Virus record (IMG/VR): IMGVR_UViG_3300030060_005751
Location: 1 to 44,715 of that record
From: a virus
Length of the DNA stretch: 44,715 nt
Direction: 5' to 3' (one strand)
The first letter of the stretch is position 1. Every line of letters begins with the position of its first letter. The notes below the pieces were generated by a model, which worked only from the letters and a program-made list of their open reading frames with translations, ran no database searches and had not been told where the DNA came from. Of this stretch, positions 1 to 5,519 are shown in pieces. Made by a program: the position numbers and the translations under genes.

Positions 1-342
1 TTTGAAATCTGATGTTGGTTCTATGTAGATAGTATCTGAATCTACATTATAATCTGCTTTAGTTCCTTTTCTTTTAGCAAACACTACCTTTGATTTTAGT
101 CCAGATTTCTTGACTATCTGTTTTGCTGTATCATAAAAGTCCACTCTTTCTTTTATTTCGTTTTTTGGTGATATTCTAAAATTCACAACCTTTTTTCCAT
201 TTATTGTTGGCATACCATGTTCATCTTTTCCTATGGATTTGACAACAACTTTTTTGTTTTTGAATCTACCAGCTAATATAACATCGCCAACCTTAACATC
301 CAAGACAATTTTTTCAGTAATTAAATTTAATAACTTAATCAT
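1..342 (-). CDS. Unknown protein with capsid-targeting-like N-terminus (3' end beyond window)
   Basis: Reading the minus strand from the ATG at 342 gives an open frame of 114 codons that runs off the left edge without a stop. I do not recognise the family. The N-terminus MIKLLNLITE closely matches those of the genes at 760, 1503 and 2977 and has Glu at residue 10, like the T4 capsid-targeting peptide. The body is Lys/Val-rich with a beta-like, basic composition and a G-x-V-I-L-A-G-R-F stretch near residues 19-27. The start overlaps the end of the upstream gene by 8 nt, so it is the last visible gene of the 2977-to-1 operon. Its length is unknown because of truncation. Confidence 0.75.
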   Translation of the reverse strand, partial: MIKLLNLITEKIVLDVKVGDVILAGRFKNKKVVVKSIGKDEHGMPTINGKKVVNFRISPKNEIKERVDFYDTAKQIVKKSGLKSKVVFAKRKGTKADYNVDSDTIYIEPTSDFK

Positions 343-760
343 CTTCCTTTTCACCAAATGCTTTCTTACCCCATATATAAGAAATCTTATCGTCTTTAAT
401 AGGACCACCTTTTGCCCAAGTATTACAAGAACGAGCAGAATGACATTTGAAATGATGCATCCAACAATATCCTAAAACACCTGAATCATCTGATACTTCA
501 CCTGGCATACACTCCAACATTCTTGGTGATATATCAAATGCTGTACAATTACCACAGAGAGATGTTCTAGCAGCCTCTACCGTTGTGTTCCATTGGTCAG
601 CAACTTTTTTCCAATAATCACCAGGCTCATCTGTGTTAAGAGGACCATAGTTATGGTTCTTTACAGTCGCATCTCTGTTTTTTGTATTAAGGTCTACATC
701 TTGAGTTGCTGGTGGACACTCTTTAAATTTTTGTTCTAATAAATCTTGTAGTCTTATCAT
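335..760 (-). CDS. Cys-rich marine-phage protein of unknown function
   Basis: 141 residues. The central and C-terminal part carries C-x-N-C-x-A-F-D, a later G-Y-C-W-M-H, F-K-C and S-C-x-T-W-A-x-G-G-P-I, seven cysteines in all from residue 69 on plus one near the N-terminus. This pattern, with the preceding Y-G-P-x-N and D-Y-W motifs, is one I associate with small proteins of unknown function in marine T4-like phages; metal or Fe-S binding is a guess from cysteine spacing. The N-terminus MIRLQDLLEQ belongs to the repeated capsid-targeting-like set. The start ATG overlaps the stop of the kinase-like gene as ATGA, with a good AAAGGA ribosome site, so translation is coupled. Confidence 0.85.
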   Translation of the reverse strand: MIRLQDLLEQKFKECPPATQDVDLNTKNRDATVKNHNYGPLNTDEPGDYWKKVADQWNTTVEAARTSLCGNCTAFDISPRMLECMPGEVSDDSGVLGYCWMHHFKCHSARSCNTWAKGGPIKDDKISYIWGKKAFGEKEDD

Positions 761-1503
761 TTTATTCCTTTAAGTATCAATTGTCTTTCTACCCATTTTT
801 TACCACGATAGTTTTTAACAGGTTTTTTTATAAAAGAACCAATACCTTTTTTGACTAACATATTGAATTTTTTGGTTGCTTGTTTTTCACTTAAGGTATT
901 TGAATTATCAACCATCATAAAATTTGCATTTCCAAAAAGACCTTGAAAATATATTTTATTTTTCTGAACCTCATTCCAAGACTCTTCTACTAATTCAGGA
1001 TTAAGTTTTCTAGGTCTTTCCATATTTCTTTTTTGTGCTACTTCTAAATCTGTATGAACAAATACCATAAAACAATCATATCCTATTTCTTCTAATTCTA
1101 ACTTTCTTTTTCTTATCTTTTCAAACTTGTGGCCTGTACCATCTATTATCATACCCAAACGACCTTCCATATAAAGTTTTTGTCTGTCTTTGGTAAGTTC
1201 TTTAGCTCTACTTCTTAAACCACTATAATCCTCGTAATCAGGATCTGTTAATTGTCTAAATAGTTCCTCTGGCATATCATCTAAGTCTGTACCAAATCCA
1301 TACTTGTTTAACATACGAACTAATTCTTTGTCTTGATTTACAAGTTTTAATCCTTGAGCAGATACATTAATTTTTTTTGGTATTCCAAATAATCCTTGAC
1401 CAACAAAACCTTTACCACTACCAGGTCCTCCAGCAAGAAATACTGCTTTAAGAATACCTGGATCCATAACACCTTCTGTTAGTAAGTCTTTTAATTTTAC
1501 CAT
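757..1503 (-). CDS. P-loop kinase-like (zeta-toxin-type) protein
   Basis: 248 residues. A Walker A motif GGPGSGKG lies at residues 25-32 (the usual final Ser/Thr is Gly), preceded by a hydrophobic strand. Residues 118-125 (M-I-I-D-G-T-G-H) look like the second acidic motif, and N-M-E-R-P-R-K at 160-166 resembles the lid arginines of small-molecule kinases and zeta-toxin-like proteins. Such P-loop proteins are widespread in marine T4-like phages; the substrate is not known. The N-terminus MVKLKDLLTE|G fits the T4 prohead-protease cleavage pattern L-x-E|G, so it may be packaged in the head and delivered with DNA (inference). It sits within a coupled operon, overlapping its upstream neighbour by 7 nt and its downstream neighbour by 4 nt. 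Confidence 0.82.
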   Translation of the reverse strand: MVKLKDLLTEGVMDPGILKAVFLAGGPGSGKGFVGQGLFGIPKKINVSAQGLKLVNQDKELVRMLNKYGFGTDLDDMPEELFRQLTDPDYEDYSGLRSRAKELTKDRQKLYMEGRLGMIIDGTGHKFEKIRKRKLELEEIGYDCFMVFVHTDLEVAQKRNMERPRKLNPELVEESWNEVQKNKIYFQGLFGNANFMMVDNSNTLSEKQATKKFNMLVKKGIGSFIKKPVKNYRGKKWVERQLILKGIK

Positions 1504-2630
1504 TTTTTACAACTCCAATAACGAGCTTTCCATCTTGGTCCTGGATTATCACAATTATGGCGTGCCCTAAATGACTTACGAGCTTTAGGATTAGACTTTC
1601 TAATTTTCATAGTTTTACCTTTTGCTGAAGAACCGCCGTGACCAAAATTAACTTTAACAACATTTCCTTTATCGTTCTTTACATACACTTTAAACTTTTT
1701 AGAGTCACCTTGCATTGGCTTACCAAGTTTGACTTTACGACCTTGATACTCGGCTTCCATTAAACCAGTCATTGTGTATCCAAATGAACCGTCTTCTGCC
1801 CATATATCATATGATTCTTTTTTACTTTTATTACCCCAATTTTTAGCACCTACCTTACGACATTTTACGAGAGCACCACTAGCATATGCTGATGGCCATA
1901 CATCGTAACGAGCTTTGACCTTATGATAACAAGCATCCTTTTTACCGGCAGCTTCATCAAATTGTTCCTCTGTAAGAACTTTTCCAACTACTTCTTCTAA
2001 CTTTAAACTCATCTTATTCTCTCGTTTTTTTCTTCCAGCACAATGTGCTTTTTGACTAAATCCTTTTGGGTTATTACAGTCGATACTTTTCTTATACTTG
2101 TCCGACCAACCTTCATTTCGTTGTTTAGTCTTCTTCTTCATTTGGTTAATAAATTTTCTATACACAGCAGCCTGAGATGACTTACCCATCTCCCTAGCTC
2201 TTTGTTCCATAGCAACAGCTGCTTGTATTTTATGAGCATGAGACTTACCACTACCTTTTATTTTAGATACTGACTTTTCAGCATCCTTGACAGTAGCAAA
2301 CTTCAGCCCCTTTATTGTACCTTTTGGATTTTCATCCGTATACAAATCTGAATGGTTTGGTGAGTTCCTATGTTGACCTTTCTTACGAGGTTTTCTTGGA
2401 GCTTCATCCATCTTTAATTTTTTTCGTAAAACAGAAATCTGTTTTATTATCTTTTTTTGATTGGCTGAACCAGGTATCATTTTCATAGCTTTGTTATACA
2501 ACTTTATTAACTCTACCTTATCATCTCCTTCACCCATTTTCATAATCATACCCAATGGTCTTCCACCACACCTTTTTCTGTATTGTGCTACAGTCTCAGT
2601 ATTTTTTTTATGTCCACATGGTATAGACAT
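1497..2630 (-). CDS. Modular basic phage protein (DUF3008-like and Cys/Trp-rich modules)
   Basis: 377 residues, strongly Lys/Arg-rich. Visible modules in order: an N-terminal Cys-containing segment; a DUF3008-like helical segment at about 110-165 (A-V-A-M-E-Q-R-A-R-E-M-G-K); a C-N-N-P-K-G-F-S-Q-K-A-H-C motif at 185-197; an internal MSLKLEEVVGKVLTEE at 207-222 that resembles a gene start; D-A-C-Y-H-K-V-K-A-R-Y-x-V-W-P-S-A-Y-A-S-G-A at 232-253; a strand-rich segment; and a C-terminal F-R-A-R-H-N-C-D-N-P-G-P...Y-W-S-C at 355-374. I associate these modules with structural or internal-head proteins of marine phages. The internal Met 207 (position 2012) could be a second start or mark a fusion. The start overlaps the upstream stop as TAATG. 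Confidence 0.83.
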   Translation of the reverse strand: MSIPCGHKKNTETVAQYRKRCGGRPLGMIMKMGEGDDKVELIKLYNKAMKMIPGSANQKKIIKQISVLRKKLKMDEAPRKPRKKGQHRNSPNHSDLYTDENPKGTIKGLKFATVKDAEKSVSKIKGSGKSHAHKIQAAVAMEQRAREMGKSSQAAVYRKFINQMKKKTKQRNEGWSDKYKKSIDCNNPKGFSQKAHCAGRKKRENKMSLKLEEVVGKVLTEEQFDEAAGKKDACYHKVKARYDVWPSAYASGALVKCRKVGAKNWGNKSKKESYDIWAEDGSFGYTMTGLMEAEYQGRKVKLGKPMQGDSKKFKVYVKNDKGNVVKVNFGHGGSSAKGKTMKIRKSNPKARKSFRARHNCDNPGPRWKARYWSCKKW

Positions 2631-2977
2631 TACTTCTTTGGTTTGGTATTAACTCTTATTGGTTTCTTACCACCACCTTTTAATGAAGAAGTTCCACCTC
2701 TTCCAGCTTTATTTTGTGCTGCTCTTTTTCTACGAGTAGCAGATTGTTTTTGTTTTTTACTCATACCAGCAGCTTTACTTGCTGGTACACATTTAGCATA
2801 CCCTCTTTTTTTACCACTTGTTCCACATGGTGGATGTTTACCTGATTTATCTTTTTTACCGATGTTTACCCACTTGTCACTAAACCATTTTTTTAGATTT
2901 TCATCTACAATATTTCCACAATGAATACAGGTATTGTCTTCTATCAGTTCGTTGAATATGTCTTTTAGATGTACCAT
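2630..2977 (-). CDS. Small basic phage protein with Cys motifs
   Basis: 115 residues. The N-terminus MVHLKDIFNE has Glu at residue 10 and belongs to the capsid-targeting-like group. It is followed by C-I-H-C-G-N, then W-F-S-D-K-W-V-N-I, P-P-C-G-T-S-G-K-K-R-G-Y-A-K-C and a long Lys/Arg/Gly-rich tail without predicted fold. The P-C-G...Y-x-K-C module recurs in marine phage proteins of unknown function; a metal-binding, nucleic-acid-coating role would fit the charge but is inference. It is the first gene of the 2977-to-1 cluster. There is no clear Shine-Dalgarno site; TATATTTATA lies 6 nt upstream of the ATG. Confidence 0.8.
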   Translation of the reverse strand: MVHLKDIFNELIEDNTCIHCGNIVDENLKKWFSDKWVNIGKKDKSGKHPPCGTSGKKRGYAKCVPASKAAGMSKKQKQSATRRKRAAQNKAGRGGTSSLKGGGKKPIRVNTKPKK

Positions 2978-2993: not shown

Positions 2994-3015
2994 ATGAAAA
3001 TAGGAAAGAAATATG

Positions 3016-3636
3016 TTAAACTTTTTTCAATTTGTTTTTTAACTGTACAATATAACCATCTATTTTTTTAGCATCACTATCATCATCCGACATTTTTTCT
3101 CTTCTGATTATTAACTTACCTAATGCTTTTTGTATTTGTAATTTAGACAACCCTTTCATCGACCTTCTGTAATATAAATGTTGTAGTGCTTCATCTTCTG
3201 CTTCTGCTCCACGAACACCAGCAACTGCTGTTATATATTCTGTCTCGTATACTTCTGCGTCTGCTACACTTTCGATTTCTTTCCAAACAGTATTATCCCA
3301 CATAGCATCTAAATCTAAATTATCTACCTCTGCTAATGCTTCTTGTGTATCGATACTATCTTGTTTTGCCTTTTCTATCTGTTGTTTTTTTCTACGAACT
3401 GCAAACTCTGCATCGTAGTATGTAGTTGATATAGAATCACACTCACTTAACCATGAACCATAATTTTTCCAATTAGGTCTACCATTAGAATTTCTATATT
3501 CTGTATCATCACATTCTGTACCCATAAAGGTAGATGTTTTAAACCTAGATACTCTGATTGTATCTTGACTATAACTTAATTGGAAGCTCAGACAAAATAA
3601 AATTAGTGGAATCATATGTGAAATACCAAATCTCAT
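3016..3636 (-). CDS. Secreted protein of unknown function, pilin-cluster member
   Basis: 206 residues. The N-terminus is a Sec signal peptide with a hydrophobic core at residues 9-22 and an S-Y-S-Q-D junction around 21-25, typical of FCB-group exported proteins. The mature part is acidic and helical with coiled-coil potential (residues 75-105 and 160-206) and two cysteines. An alternative start is Met 8. The gene overlaps the end of the pilin-like gene upstream by 68 nt and is the last gene of the pilin cluster, so it may work in the periplasm with the pilins, for example as a chaperone or tip factor (inference). I recognise no family. Confidence 0.75.
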   Translation of the reverse strand: MRFGISHMIPLILFCLSFQLSYSQDTIRVSRFKTSTFMGTECDDTEYRNSNGRPNWKNYGSWLSECDSISTTYYDAEFAVRRKKQQIEKAKQDSIDTQEALAEVDNLDLDAMWDNTVWKEIESVADAEVYETEYITAVAGVRGAEAEDEALQHLYYRRSMKGLSKLQIQKALGKLIIRREKMSDDDSDAKKIDGYIVQLKNKLKKV

Positions 3637-3964
3637 TATTCATTCTCCTGTGATATAGTTTAGTTCCATCAAATTGCCATTCATTATCTTCATCAGGTAT
3701 TCCTAATGGTAAAGTAATAATGACACCTCTTGTACGACCTAAAACAGAAAGTGGATTAGATGGCCAACTTTCTATTCCTGTTAATTCTAATTGTTCTTTA
3801 GCGTGTAATTCTAATTCTTTCCATATCTGATAAGTAAATTTCTTTTCAGATTTTAATTCTTCTAATTCAATTCTTTCTGCATATCTTGGTAAAGCTATAG
3901 CACTTAATATACCAATAACAAGAATAACTACAACTAATTCAATCATAGTATATCCTTTGCTCAT
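3569..3964 (-). CDS. Type IV pilin/pseudopilin-like protein
   Basis: 131 residues. A class III (prepilin) signal is clear: short leader MSKG, then YTMIELVVV with Glu at mature position 5, and a hydrophobic helix to about residue 25 ending L-P-R-Y. The C-terminal domain shares S-W-P-S-N-P and E-W-x-F-x...H-R-R-x-N-N with the gene at 4422-4853, so the two are paralogues. Family knowledge: such proteins are cleaved by a prepilin peptidase after Gly and assembled into type IV pili or type II secretion pseudopili. No peptidase, ATPase or platform gene is visible here, so host machinery would be needed. It starts by TAATG coupling to the upstream pilin. Confidence 0.88.
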   Translation of the reverse strand: MSKGYTMIELVVVILVIGILSAIALPRYAERIELEELKSEKKFTYQIWKELELHAKEQLELTGIESWPSNPLSVLGRTRGVIITLPLGIPDEDNEWQFDGTKLYHRRMNNEIWYFTYDSTNFILSELPIKL

Positions 3965-4410
3965 TAAATTTCTCCGATTATGTATTCCTCATACGATGGG
4001 CTATCTTCATCCACATCACTAATAATAAATAGTTTAGTTATATATCCTTGAGATGAAGTATCGGATGTTATCTCATATTCAAATGGATTATTATTAGAAT
4101 TAAATGGTAAGTCACCGCTAAATAAATGATTAGGTGTTCTACCATCAGATAAAATTATATCACGATAATCTTCATCTAATAAATTGTTTTCTGGCTCAGT
4201 AGGAAGTTGTGGATTACCTTTTATATGAGTCTCTTGATAATATCTCAAAAAAGTATCTCTAATAATTGACATATTAGCAAGATTGATTTGTCTTTGAGTA
4301 TCCATCGTTAAATTACTAAAAGTGGGAATAGCAAAAGACATCACTATTCCCACCAAAGCAATACTAACTACTAACTCTGCCAATGTGAAACCATCAGTTG
4401 AGTTTCTCAT
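3964..4410 (-). CDS. Type IV pilin/pseudopilin-like protein
   Basis: 148 residues. Prepilin leader MRNSTDG is followed by FTLAELVVS with Glu at mature position 5 and a transmembrane-type helix to about residue 32 (A-I-P-T-F). The globular part differs from the two W-P-containing paralogues. It has a helix with Q-R-Q-I-N-L-A-N-M, an acidic middle and a C-terminal strand-rich segment ending Y-I-I-G-E-I, the layout of a minor pilin. It lies between other pilin genes in one direction with an 11-nt gap upstream and TAATG overlap downstream, which supports one operon and joint assembly. Confidence 0.87.
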   Translation of the reverse strand: MRNSTDGFTLAELVVSIALVGIVMSFAIPTFSNLTMDTQRQINLANMSIIRDTFLRYYQETHIKGNPQLPTEPENNLLDEDYRDIILSDGRTPNHLFSGDLPFNSNNNPFEYEITSDTSSQGYITKLFIISDVDEDSPSYEEYIIGEI

Positions 4411-4421
4411 TGGTATCTCCC

Positions 4422-4853
4422 TTAGTCTACGATAGCTTCTCTAGCACCAATTGAACCAACAACAGCATTATCGCCTGATTGAACACCTTTGTCGTATGCC
4501 CAAGCATAACGAGTGTTATCTTTTCGTTGGTGTGTGATTTTGTTGGTTGTGGTGTTGAATGTCCACTCACCATCGGTATCAGCATTATCAACATCTGTTG
4601 AATCGTATCCTACTGGTACTTGGTCTAAAGCATCAAAAGGATGGGTTGGCCAACTCTTTCTACCATTATCAAGAAGTTGTTCAACAGCGTAGTTTTCAAG
4701 ACCAGCTTTCACAGATGCCATTATAGCATCTTCTGCTGCTTGTTCTGCTTTGTCTACCACACCGACATATCTTGGTATGGCTACAGCTGCAAGAATTCCT
4801 AAAATGATAGTAACCATTATTAGTTCTATTAATGTGAATCCTTTGTTGTTCAT
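4422..4853 (-). CDS. Type IV pilin/type II secretion major-pseudopilin-like protein
   Basis: 143 residues. The prepilin signal is textbook: MNNKG|FTLIELIMV with Glu 5, then the helix with I-L-G-I-L-A-A-V-A-I-P-R-Y. The head domain has S-W-P-T-H-P, an acidic loop with D-V-D-N-A-D-T-D-G-E-W, and H-Q-R-K-D-N-T-R-Y-A-W. The acidic loop could be a Ca-binding loop as in GspG-type pseudopilins (inference). It is paralogous to 3569-3964. This is the most canonical pilin in the cluster and a likely major subunit. Confidence 0.9.
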   Translation of the reverse strand: MNNKGFTLIELIMVTIILGILAAVAIPRYVGVVDKAEQAAEDAIMASVKAGLENYAVEQLLDNGRKSWPTHPFDALDQVPVGYDSTDVDNADTDGEWTFNTTTNKITHQRKDNTRYAWAYDKGVQSGDNAVVGSIGAREAIVD

Positions 4854-4883
4854 TGTATTCTCCGCTCGATTTCGAGTCTGATT

Positions 4884-5519
4884 TTAAGGTTGTAGTTTTT
4901 TGTTGAAGTTTAATGGACTTTCCAAGTCTGCAATATACAGAATAGGAGAGTAAGATTGTTGTCCACTTCCACCACCAGCAACTACTGTGTAGATGTAGTG
5001 ACCATCCTGGAAAGGACTCTTAATGGCGTTTCCACCAAACTCGTTTAGGAACTCTTCAGCACCAACTGATACATCAAATGAACCATCTCCATTATCATCT
5101 TCTGATGTACTTAATTGATTACCACTAGGAGCTGGCGATTCAACATTAACTGTTCCAAATACGGAAGCCCAATTACCTGCTTCACTACTTTCATATGTTT
5201 CGAATTCATCTAAACTTGTAAGTAGTGCGTCTTCGTTAGCATATCCACCAGCATCAGGTACAGATTCATTGTACTTTACTTGTCCTGGAAACCGACCACG
5301 ACCTTCATCAGTTACTCTAGCGTTATAGAAGTTATTAGCTGATTTCATTATCTTATCGATATCAGCAAGTGTTTTCTTTTCCTTAGCACCTTCTCCAACA
5401 CCGGAAAATTTAGGTGCAGCAGTAGTAGCAAGTGTAGCCATCATAGCAGTTGTTACTGCAAATTCAGCGAGTGACTGACCACTACGGCCTTTTAGTTTTT
5501 TTCTTAGTGATTTGAACAT
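4884..5519 (-). CDS. Atypical pilin-like protein (Q-S-L-A-E-F type)
   Basis: 211 residues. A basic leader MFKSLRKKLKGRSG is followed by QSLAEFAVTTAMM, giving a prepilin-like cleavage site after Gly with Glu at mature position 5. The helix is Ala/Thr-rich (T-T-A-A-P-K-F) and less hydrophobic than in the other three. The mature domain is acidic, with a D-D-N-G-D-G-S-F-D segment near 140-149 that looks like a Ca-binding loop, and a Gly-rich C-terminal part. It is first in the pilin operon, with a strong AAGGAGA ribosome site. It could be a Flp/Tad-like or divergent type IV pilin. Confidence 0.8.
   Translation of the reverse strand: MFKSLRKKLKGRSGQSLAEFAVTTAMMATLATTAAPKFSGVGEGAKEKKTLADIDKIMKSANNFYNARVTDEGRGRFPGQVKYNESVPDAGGYANEDALLTSLDEFETYESSEAGNWASVFGTVNVESPAPSGNQLSTSEDDNGDGSFDVSVGAEEFLNEFGGNAIKSPFQDGHYIYTVVAGGGSGQQSYSPILYIADLESPLNFNKKLQP

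Follow-up and report, generated by a model that had tools for sequence, protein, structure and literature searches.

Why do neighbouring phage proteins with unrelated bodies begin with almost the same ten residues? The question is raised by the left end of a 44.7-kb fragment of an uncultured marine T4-like phage (IMG/VR-classed virus record IMGVR_UViG_3300030060_005751, whose whole stretch is called the window here), in which five minus-strand genes follow one another with overlaps or hardly any gap and four of them start with such a leader. Sequence comparisons make it very probable that these N-termini are capsid-targeting leaders of the T4 type that are cut by a gp21-type prohead protease, and that they are accompanied by probable polyproteins cut at domain borders.

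The leader register and its setting

The initial annotation had pointed to similar N-termini on the proteins starting at 342, 760, 1503 and 2977, and all four are found there on the minus strand: MIKLLNLITE (313-342, predicted cut ITE^K), MIRLQDLLEQ (731-760, LLE^Q, with the predicted cut after Glu 9), MVKLKDLLTE (1474-1503, LTE^G) and MVHLKDIFNE (2948-2977). Leu 4 and Leu/Ile 7 are present in all four. Glutamate occupies residue 10 in three of them, as had been claimed, and the protein starting at 760, which has Glu 9-Gln 10, still shows L-x-E. The proposed match to [LI]-x-E at residue 10 holds strictly for two of the four (ITE and LTE), but not for the protein starting at 2977, which reads FNE there and LIE at residues 11-13. 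Among orthologues, those of the first protein in the related contigs G002 and G003 carry the same leader type, those of the second read MISLIKLLEQ and MIKLTDLLEQ, Glu 10 and Gly 11 of the kinase-like protein starting at 1503 are invariant in 23 homologues, and the G002 counterpart of the protein starting at 2977 reads MVHLKDIFLE.

The bodies behind the leaders are, as had been stated, mutually unrelated (phmmer at E<=10 finds no similarity between them). A recent duplication of gene-start DNA was rejected as the origin of the leaders, because identical residues in leader pairs frequently differ in their codons (up to 3/4). Across the phage group, 66 leaders have Glu at residue 10 in 64 cases, Leu/Ile at residues 7 and 8 in almost all and a free residue 9, in a set whose search pattern had already fixed Leu 4, hydrophobic residues at 7 and 8 and Glu/Gln at 10. 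This group register (L4, [LI]7, [LI]8, E10) coincides with the positions shown by mutation in T4 IPIII, of which the first ten residues suffice for packaging, with residues 4 and 7 serving targeting and 8 and 10 processing; T4 gp21 cleaves after L/I-x-E (PMC9026906). An AlphaFold2 model of the kinase-like protein, with a mean predicted local distance difference test (pLDDT) score of 81, has a short helix at residues 4-9, followed by a loop and the first strand of the P-loop kinase.

In about 26 related contigs, 60 distinct N-termini carry the ten-residue leader pattern, where 0.72 would be expected from residue shuffling (maximum 4 in 200 shuffles). Since this pattern was derived from the finding itself, a second test was applied to genes chosen by position only, with a looser class pattern (hydrophobic residues at 4, 7 and 8, Glu at 10): 28 of the 106 genes between the protease and scaffold genes carry it, against 0.5 expected (maximum 3). 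Near hallmark genes of head or cargo, 54 of 563 genes have leaders, whereas elsewhere the count is 7 of 352 (Fisher p 2e-6). Five of these seven distant matches lie in a second cargo cluster, which is of a kind like that in the window and is situated near primase-like and recombination-like genes; one more (in G021) adjoins a cargo module, and the last is chance-like. With no start pattern imposed, 52 of 374 near genes have an [LIVM]xE that ends at residue 10, compared with 13 of 276 far genes. When the residue classes of near and far genes (relative to head genes) were compared position by position, the difference was weak, because many near genes have other leaders or none. The motif was also looked for on clearly non-virion early proteins, where its presence would have spoken against the initial annotation, and none of the 55 other window genes, which lie beyond base 3000, carries the register. 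Far from head genes, Microcystis phage Mel-JY01, on which no publication was found, encodes two similar proteins (L093:10276-10926 and L093:12056-12718) in which ISDRVWHxT comes after a MIKLxSLxxE leader; one of the two was tested and has no match in Pfam or PHROGs.

The search for a gp21-like protease, proposed along with the four N-termini, had a divided outcome: the fragment has none, but PF03420 (gp21-type) scores above its cut-off in 13 of 20 related contigs. One of these is the close relative G003, with a kinase that shares 96 percent identity with that of the window. In the alignment of these proteases the motifs GELDHPES and ISSRG are conserved, which we take to hold the catalytic His and Ser. 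The C-terminus of most members is a conserved [VM]NE, which would fit the C-terminal self-cleavage described for T4 gp21 and SPN3US gp245 (PMC9026906, PMC10052503). The major capsid proteins likewise have [IV]xE, the same signal as in the leaders, at the region where T4 gp23 is matured (14 of 14 checked). Directly behind the protease gene, many relatives (G003, G008, G012, G011 and others) encode a protein of 216-718 residues with a lysine-rich start, MP[SAF]..SKxQ(Q/R)(K/R)(F/W)M.

Probable cut signals at module borders

The gene at 1497-2630 on the minus strand encodes a 377-residue protein without a leader at its own start, composed of several modules (M2, M3, M4 and M5). The leader-like stretch that had been reported inside it (LKLEEVVGKVLTEE) is present, with an in-frame ATG upstream at 2012. 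In the related contig G026, a gene of its own begins with this internal leader (MSLKLEEVVGKVLTE^E, 1968-2012), and because of this and of the in-frame ATG the window gene seems to be either a fusion or a gene with an internal start. Predicted junctions of the same protein are the Glu before M5 (GLME^AEYQGRKVKL, 1755-1757) and the Glu before M2 (MDE^APRKPRKKGQHR, 2403-2405), both with [LIVM]xE at position -1, while the Glu before M3 (QRNE^GWSDKYKKS, 2112-2114) has no strict [LI]xE.

Immediately before the kinase-like domain, [LIV]xE is found in all 15 distinct upstream contexts, two contexts being counted as distinct if they differ at five or more of the ten upstream residues; among these contexts are the window leader, MSLKKLVEEITKPFLEE, MDKLTKYLTEPFLIEE and modules inside proteins of ~1,000-1,400 residues. 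The Glu-Gly junction of the kinase is also found in Pelagibacter phage HTVC008M (MIPFILKE^G) and in a 778-residue protein of Agrobacterium phage Atu_ph07 (SEVTE^G). Before other modules the cut signal stands exactly at -1 in 11 of 12 distinct contexts for M5, 15 of 16 for M10, 8 of 11 for M2, 8 of 14 for M1 and 3 of 4 for M4, and it is near zero at other offsets, in contexts that are not fully independent by descent. In relatives, the kinase, M1, M2, nucleotidyltransferase and M10 modules occur together in single proteins of ~1,000-1,400 residues. The simplest reading would be that the protease removing the leaders also separates the modules, and the large cargo proteins are probably polyproteins that are packaged in the head and cleaved into their individual domains. 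Module M10 (GGAYGHMxHPFDD...EKxDGQN; L058:7812-10337) resembles, by motif only, an RNA-ligase-type nucleotidyltransferase.

In such a mechanism, docking of the protein to the prohead core would be the task of residues 4 and 7 and of the short helix 4-9, and after formation of the shell a gp21-type protease would cut past [LIV]-x-Glu at residue 9 or 10. The cut would free the body into the head, from where ejection with the DNA would be possible. At the module borders of larger cargo, such as the protein encoded at 1497-2630 and the proteins of ~1,000-1,400 residues, the same signal would lead to separate domains. We infer import, cleavage in the window phage, domain release, injection and an effector role, with injection into the host resting on the analogy to T4; some leader proteins may be core proteins that are not kept in the virion.

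A wider proposal, for which we see the chances as about evenly balanced, is that marine T4-like phages make large head-packaged multi-enzyme precursors that are imported through a single N-terminal leader; the prohead protease would split them at the [LIV]xE borders into individual enzymes, which would be delivered with the DNA, the same domains also occurring singly with their own leader. If the readings given here are right, the ten-residue leader and the [LIV]xE border would provide a simple rule for recognising, among the many uncharacterised proteins of ocean T4-like phages, those that are carried in the head, and the proteins marked by this rule would probably enter the host first. A mechanism known from few T4 proteins would then extend to dozens, and polyproteins in tailed phages would be suggested. 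Capsid-targeting sequences with gp21 cleavage are known from T4, and polyvalent multi-domain injected proteins are known as a class (PMC5512222). In the open literature searched, we found no description of the Lys-Leu leader in marine or Far-T4-like phages, nor of prohead-protease borders inside multi-domain cargo proteins, and the accessible portions of the Far-T4 and jumbo phage papers make no mention of such leaders.

Known systems, virion data and rival explanations

The internal proteins (IP) IPI, IPII and IPIII of T4 and its Alt protein resemble the proteins described here in their aromatic or hydrophobic residues 4 and 7 and, in the IPs, in the ten-residue leader; further shared features are [LI]-x-E ending at residue 10, unrelated bodies and a gp21-type protease (PMC9026906). 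In contrast to the three IP leaders of T4, dozens of distinct leader proteins occur across the phage group studied here, and, unlike in T4, the leader is Lys-Leu-rich (MIKLKDLLxE) and junctions lie inside multi-domain proteins. SPN3US and phiKZ also have head-packaged proteins with Glu-ending propeptides, which are cut there by a gp21-related protease; in SPN3US, however, the motif is A-x-E, the propeptides comprise 20-254 residues (PMC10052503) and no common short leader has been described. The polyvalent phage proteins of Iyer et al. 2017 are likewise multi-domain, with shuffled enzyme domains, and were inferred to be packaged and injected (PMC5512222). Several unrelated domains per polypeptide, a mark of that class, are found here as well, with four modules in the window protein 1497-2630. 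The release of polyvalent proteins is ascribed to an internal metallopeptidase, whereas the junctions described here fit the prohead protease; the window proteins showed no internal metallopeptidase. One leader protein of a relative, which has a Nudix domain, gives a weak match to MPTase-PolyVal (E 0.0035, below cut-off).

A link to virions is provided by cyanophages, in which the cytidylyltransferase T4-GC190 was detected in purified S-SM1 particles (PMC3037559). GC190 has a ten-residue register like the window leaders, with the N-termini MKKFSAFLNE in S-SM1 and MKSFFQFLSE in its S-SM2 orthologue; it is the only register match among 24 genes scanned around it in S-SM1, and its orthologue the only one among 67 in S-SM2. 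It matches the broad Pfam family CTP_transf_like, as does the nucleotidyltransferase module of the large G003 protein. In two stretches of S-SM2, the GenBank note 'similar to Synechococcus phage S-SM1 protein' is attached to head, neck and tail proteins, to GC190 and to GC119; because its note is that of these proteins, GC119 is probably a virion protein, and it has module M4 and the [LI]xE^GxKDACYHK junction in common with the window protein 1497-2630. The accessible portions of the literature searched describe no capsid-targeting leaders for GC190 or GC119. In Atu_ph07, the kinase protein gp053 has the leader MKWNDLNE and its neighbours gp054-gp058 start with M[KR]WEQL[TN]E; the gene block of coding sequences (CDS) 31-76, which includes gp053, has 29 virion-found proteins, a number counted for the whole block (PMC6102473).

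Two minor observations concern these cultured phages. The six neighbours gp053-gp058 of Atu_ph07 (L206:656-7590), one of which has a kinase domain, have the eight-residue leader M[KR]W[EN][QD]L[TN]E in common. All six also contain a YRGM motif, which we take to be reminiscent of ADP-ribosyltransferases. In S-SM2, the small protein SSM2_108 (L207:5377-5805) begins with the leader MKTLKQFLKE, followed by TPTNSVGNGGYTSAGGQTVAGYD, and ends in module M3; its TPTNSVGNGGYTSAGGQTVAGYD is almost the same as PTNAVGNGGYTSSGGQTVAGFD, which lies close to the start of the S-SM2 major capsid protein.

The register, the clustering with head genes, the junctions, the protease of the relatives, the corresponding sites in major capsid proteins and the virion-found cyanophage protein together support the capsid-targeting and prohead-protease interpretation of the initial annotation. 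Several points weigh against it. In the 44.7-kb record of the window neither the PF03420 protease nor capsid, scaffold or other recognised head genes were seen, the leader of the protein starting at 2977 has Phe at P3, and the experimental virion data come from relatives, the window phage being known from sequence alone. The module starts for the junction test were picked by eye, some standalone M1 proteins of relatives (L011, L027 and L172) begin at the module without a leader, LLLM replaces LxE in part of the M10 contexts, and the exact ten-residue register is missing from the cargo-like genes of HTVC008M.

The leader proteins might instead be prohead core proteins like T4 gp67/gp68, which would be imported, cut and mostly expelled and would shape the head rather than be injected. 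Many leader genes do sit directly in the interval from protease to scaffold gene, and in T4 the core proteins are cleaved into pieces, most of which exit the head (PMC9026906). However, the window set includes a folded kinase domain and one leader protein of a relative is a Nudix enzyme, both domains intact behind the junction, and the enzyme GC190 stays in S-SM1 virions; we consider this explanation unlikely. Less probable still is that the leaders are a protease recognition or amphipathic docking tag (e.g. for a membrane or host machinery) without import into the head. At the internal junctions [LIV]xE persists although the K-L..L part in front of it is missing, which makes cutting and targeting separable, but the clustering with the head module, the T4 register at residues 4 and 7 and the cyanophage protein found in virions with this register speak against such a tag.

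Hardly any credence can be given to an origin by recombination in which gene starts are copied with no selection acting on the protein, even though different leaders are swapped before the same kinase domain: neighbouring leaders encode identical residues by different codons, Leu/Ile at residues 7 and 8 and Glu at 10 are kept whereas residue 9 varies, and the internal copies retain the cut signal only. Alternatively, the internal [LIV]xE sites could be relics of gene fusions that are no longer cut, so that the large proteins act whole, a possibility which we regard as doubtful rather than remote. It would agree with the identity of the window protein's internal leader to the N-terminus of the separate G026 gene and with the N4 virion RNA polymerase, a packaged polyvalent protein that stays uncut (PMC5512222). 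Most internal junctions, on the other hand, are without a leader-like upstream part, yet carry the signal exactly at -1 in unrelated contexts.

The left-end gene cluster

Apart from the multi-module protein, the cluster comprises the four leader proteins, all on the minus strand. The first of these (1-342), which is cut by the window end, consists of its leader and module M1 (KIVLDVKVGDVILAGRFKNKKVVVKSI...), which recurs within large proteins of relatives; a GTG at 408 (stretch 1-408) was rejected as its start, the ATG at 342 being favoured by the G002 and G003 orthologues. The second (335-760) is a cysteine-rich protein of 141 residues without a family match. The fifth gene of the cluster (2630-2977) encodes a Cys/Lys-rich protein of 115 residues with a weak match to DUF5872, below the curated cut-off. 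Most leader proteins have no family in Pfam or PHROGs.

The protein of 248 residues encoded at 757-1503 is P-loop kinase-like (AAA_33 / Zeta_toxin / polynucleotide-kinase-like). That the set has a kinase-like member, as first proposed, is borne out by Pfam matches to AAA_33 and Zeta_toxin above cut-off, and the Walker A motif GGPGSGK is invariant among the homologues. The best Foldseek matches are adenylate, zeta and polynucleotide kinases, with a template modelling (TM) score of at most 0.5 by query length, and searching the solved structures with a profile of the kinase alignment gave no match. To judge by its family matches, the protein is of the zeta-toxin/polynucleotide-kinase type; a nucleotide, nucleic-acid or repair-related substrate would be a guess only.

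Tail and baseplate genes are found in the middle of the window, among them the gp25- and gp6-like baseplate wedge families. Closer to the cluster, at 3569-5519 on the minus strand, four adjoining proteins have type IV prepilin/pseudopilin-like starts (GFTLIELIMVTIILGILAAVAIPRY, GFTLAELVVSIALVGIVMSFAIPTF, GYTMIELVVVILVIGILSAIALPRY and a variant of SLAEFAVTTAMMATLATTAAPKFSG), and prepilin-like genes similar to these adjoin the cargo cluster in G003 and G008.

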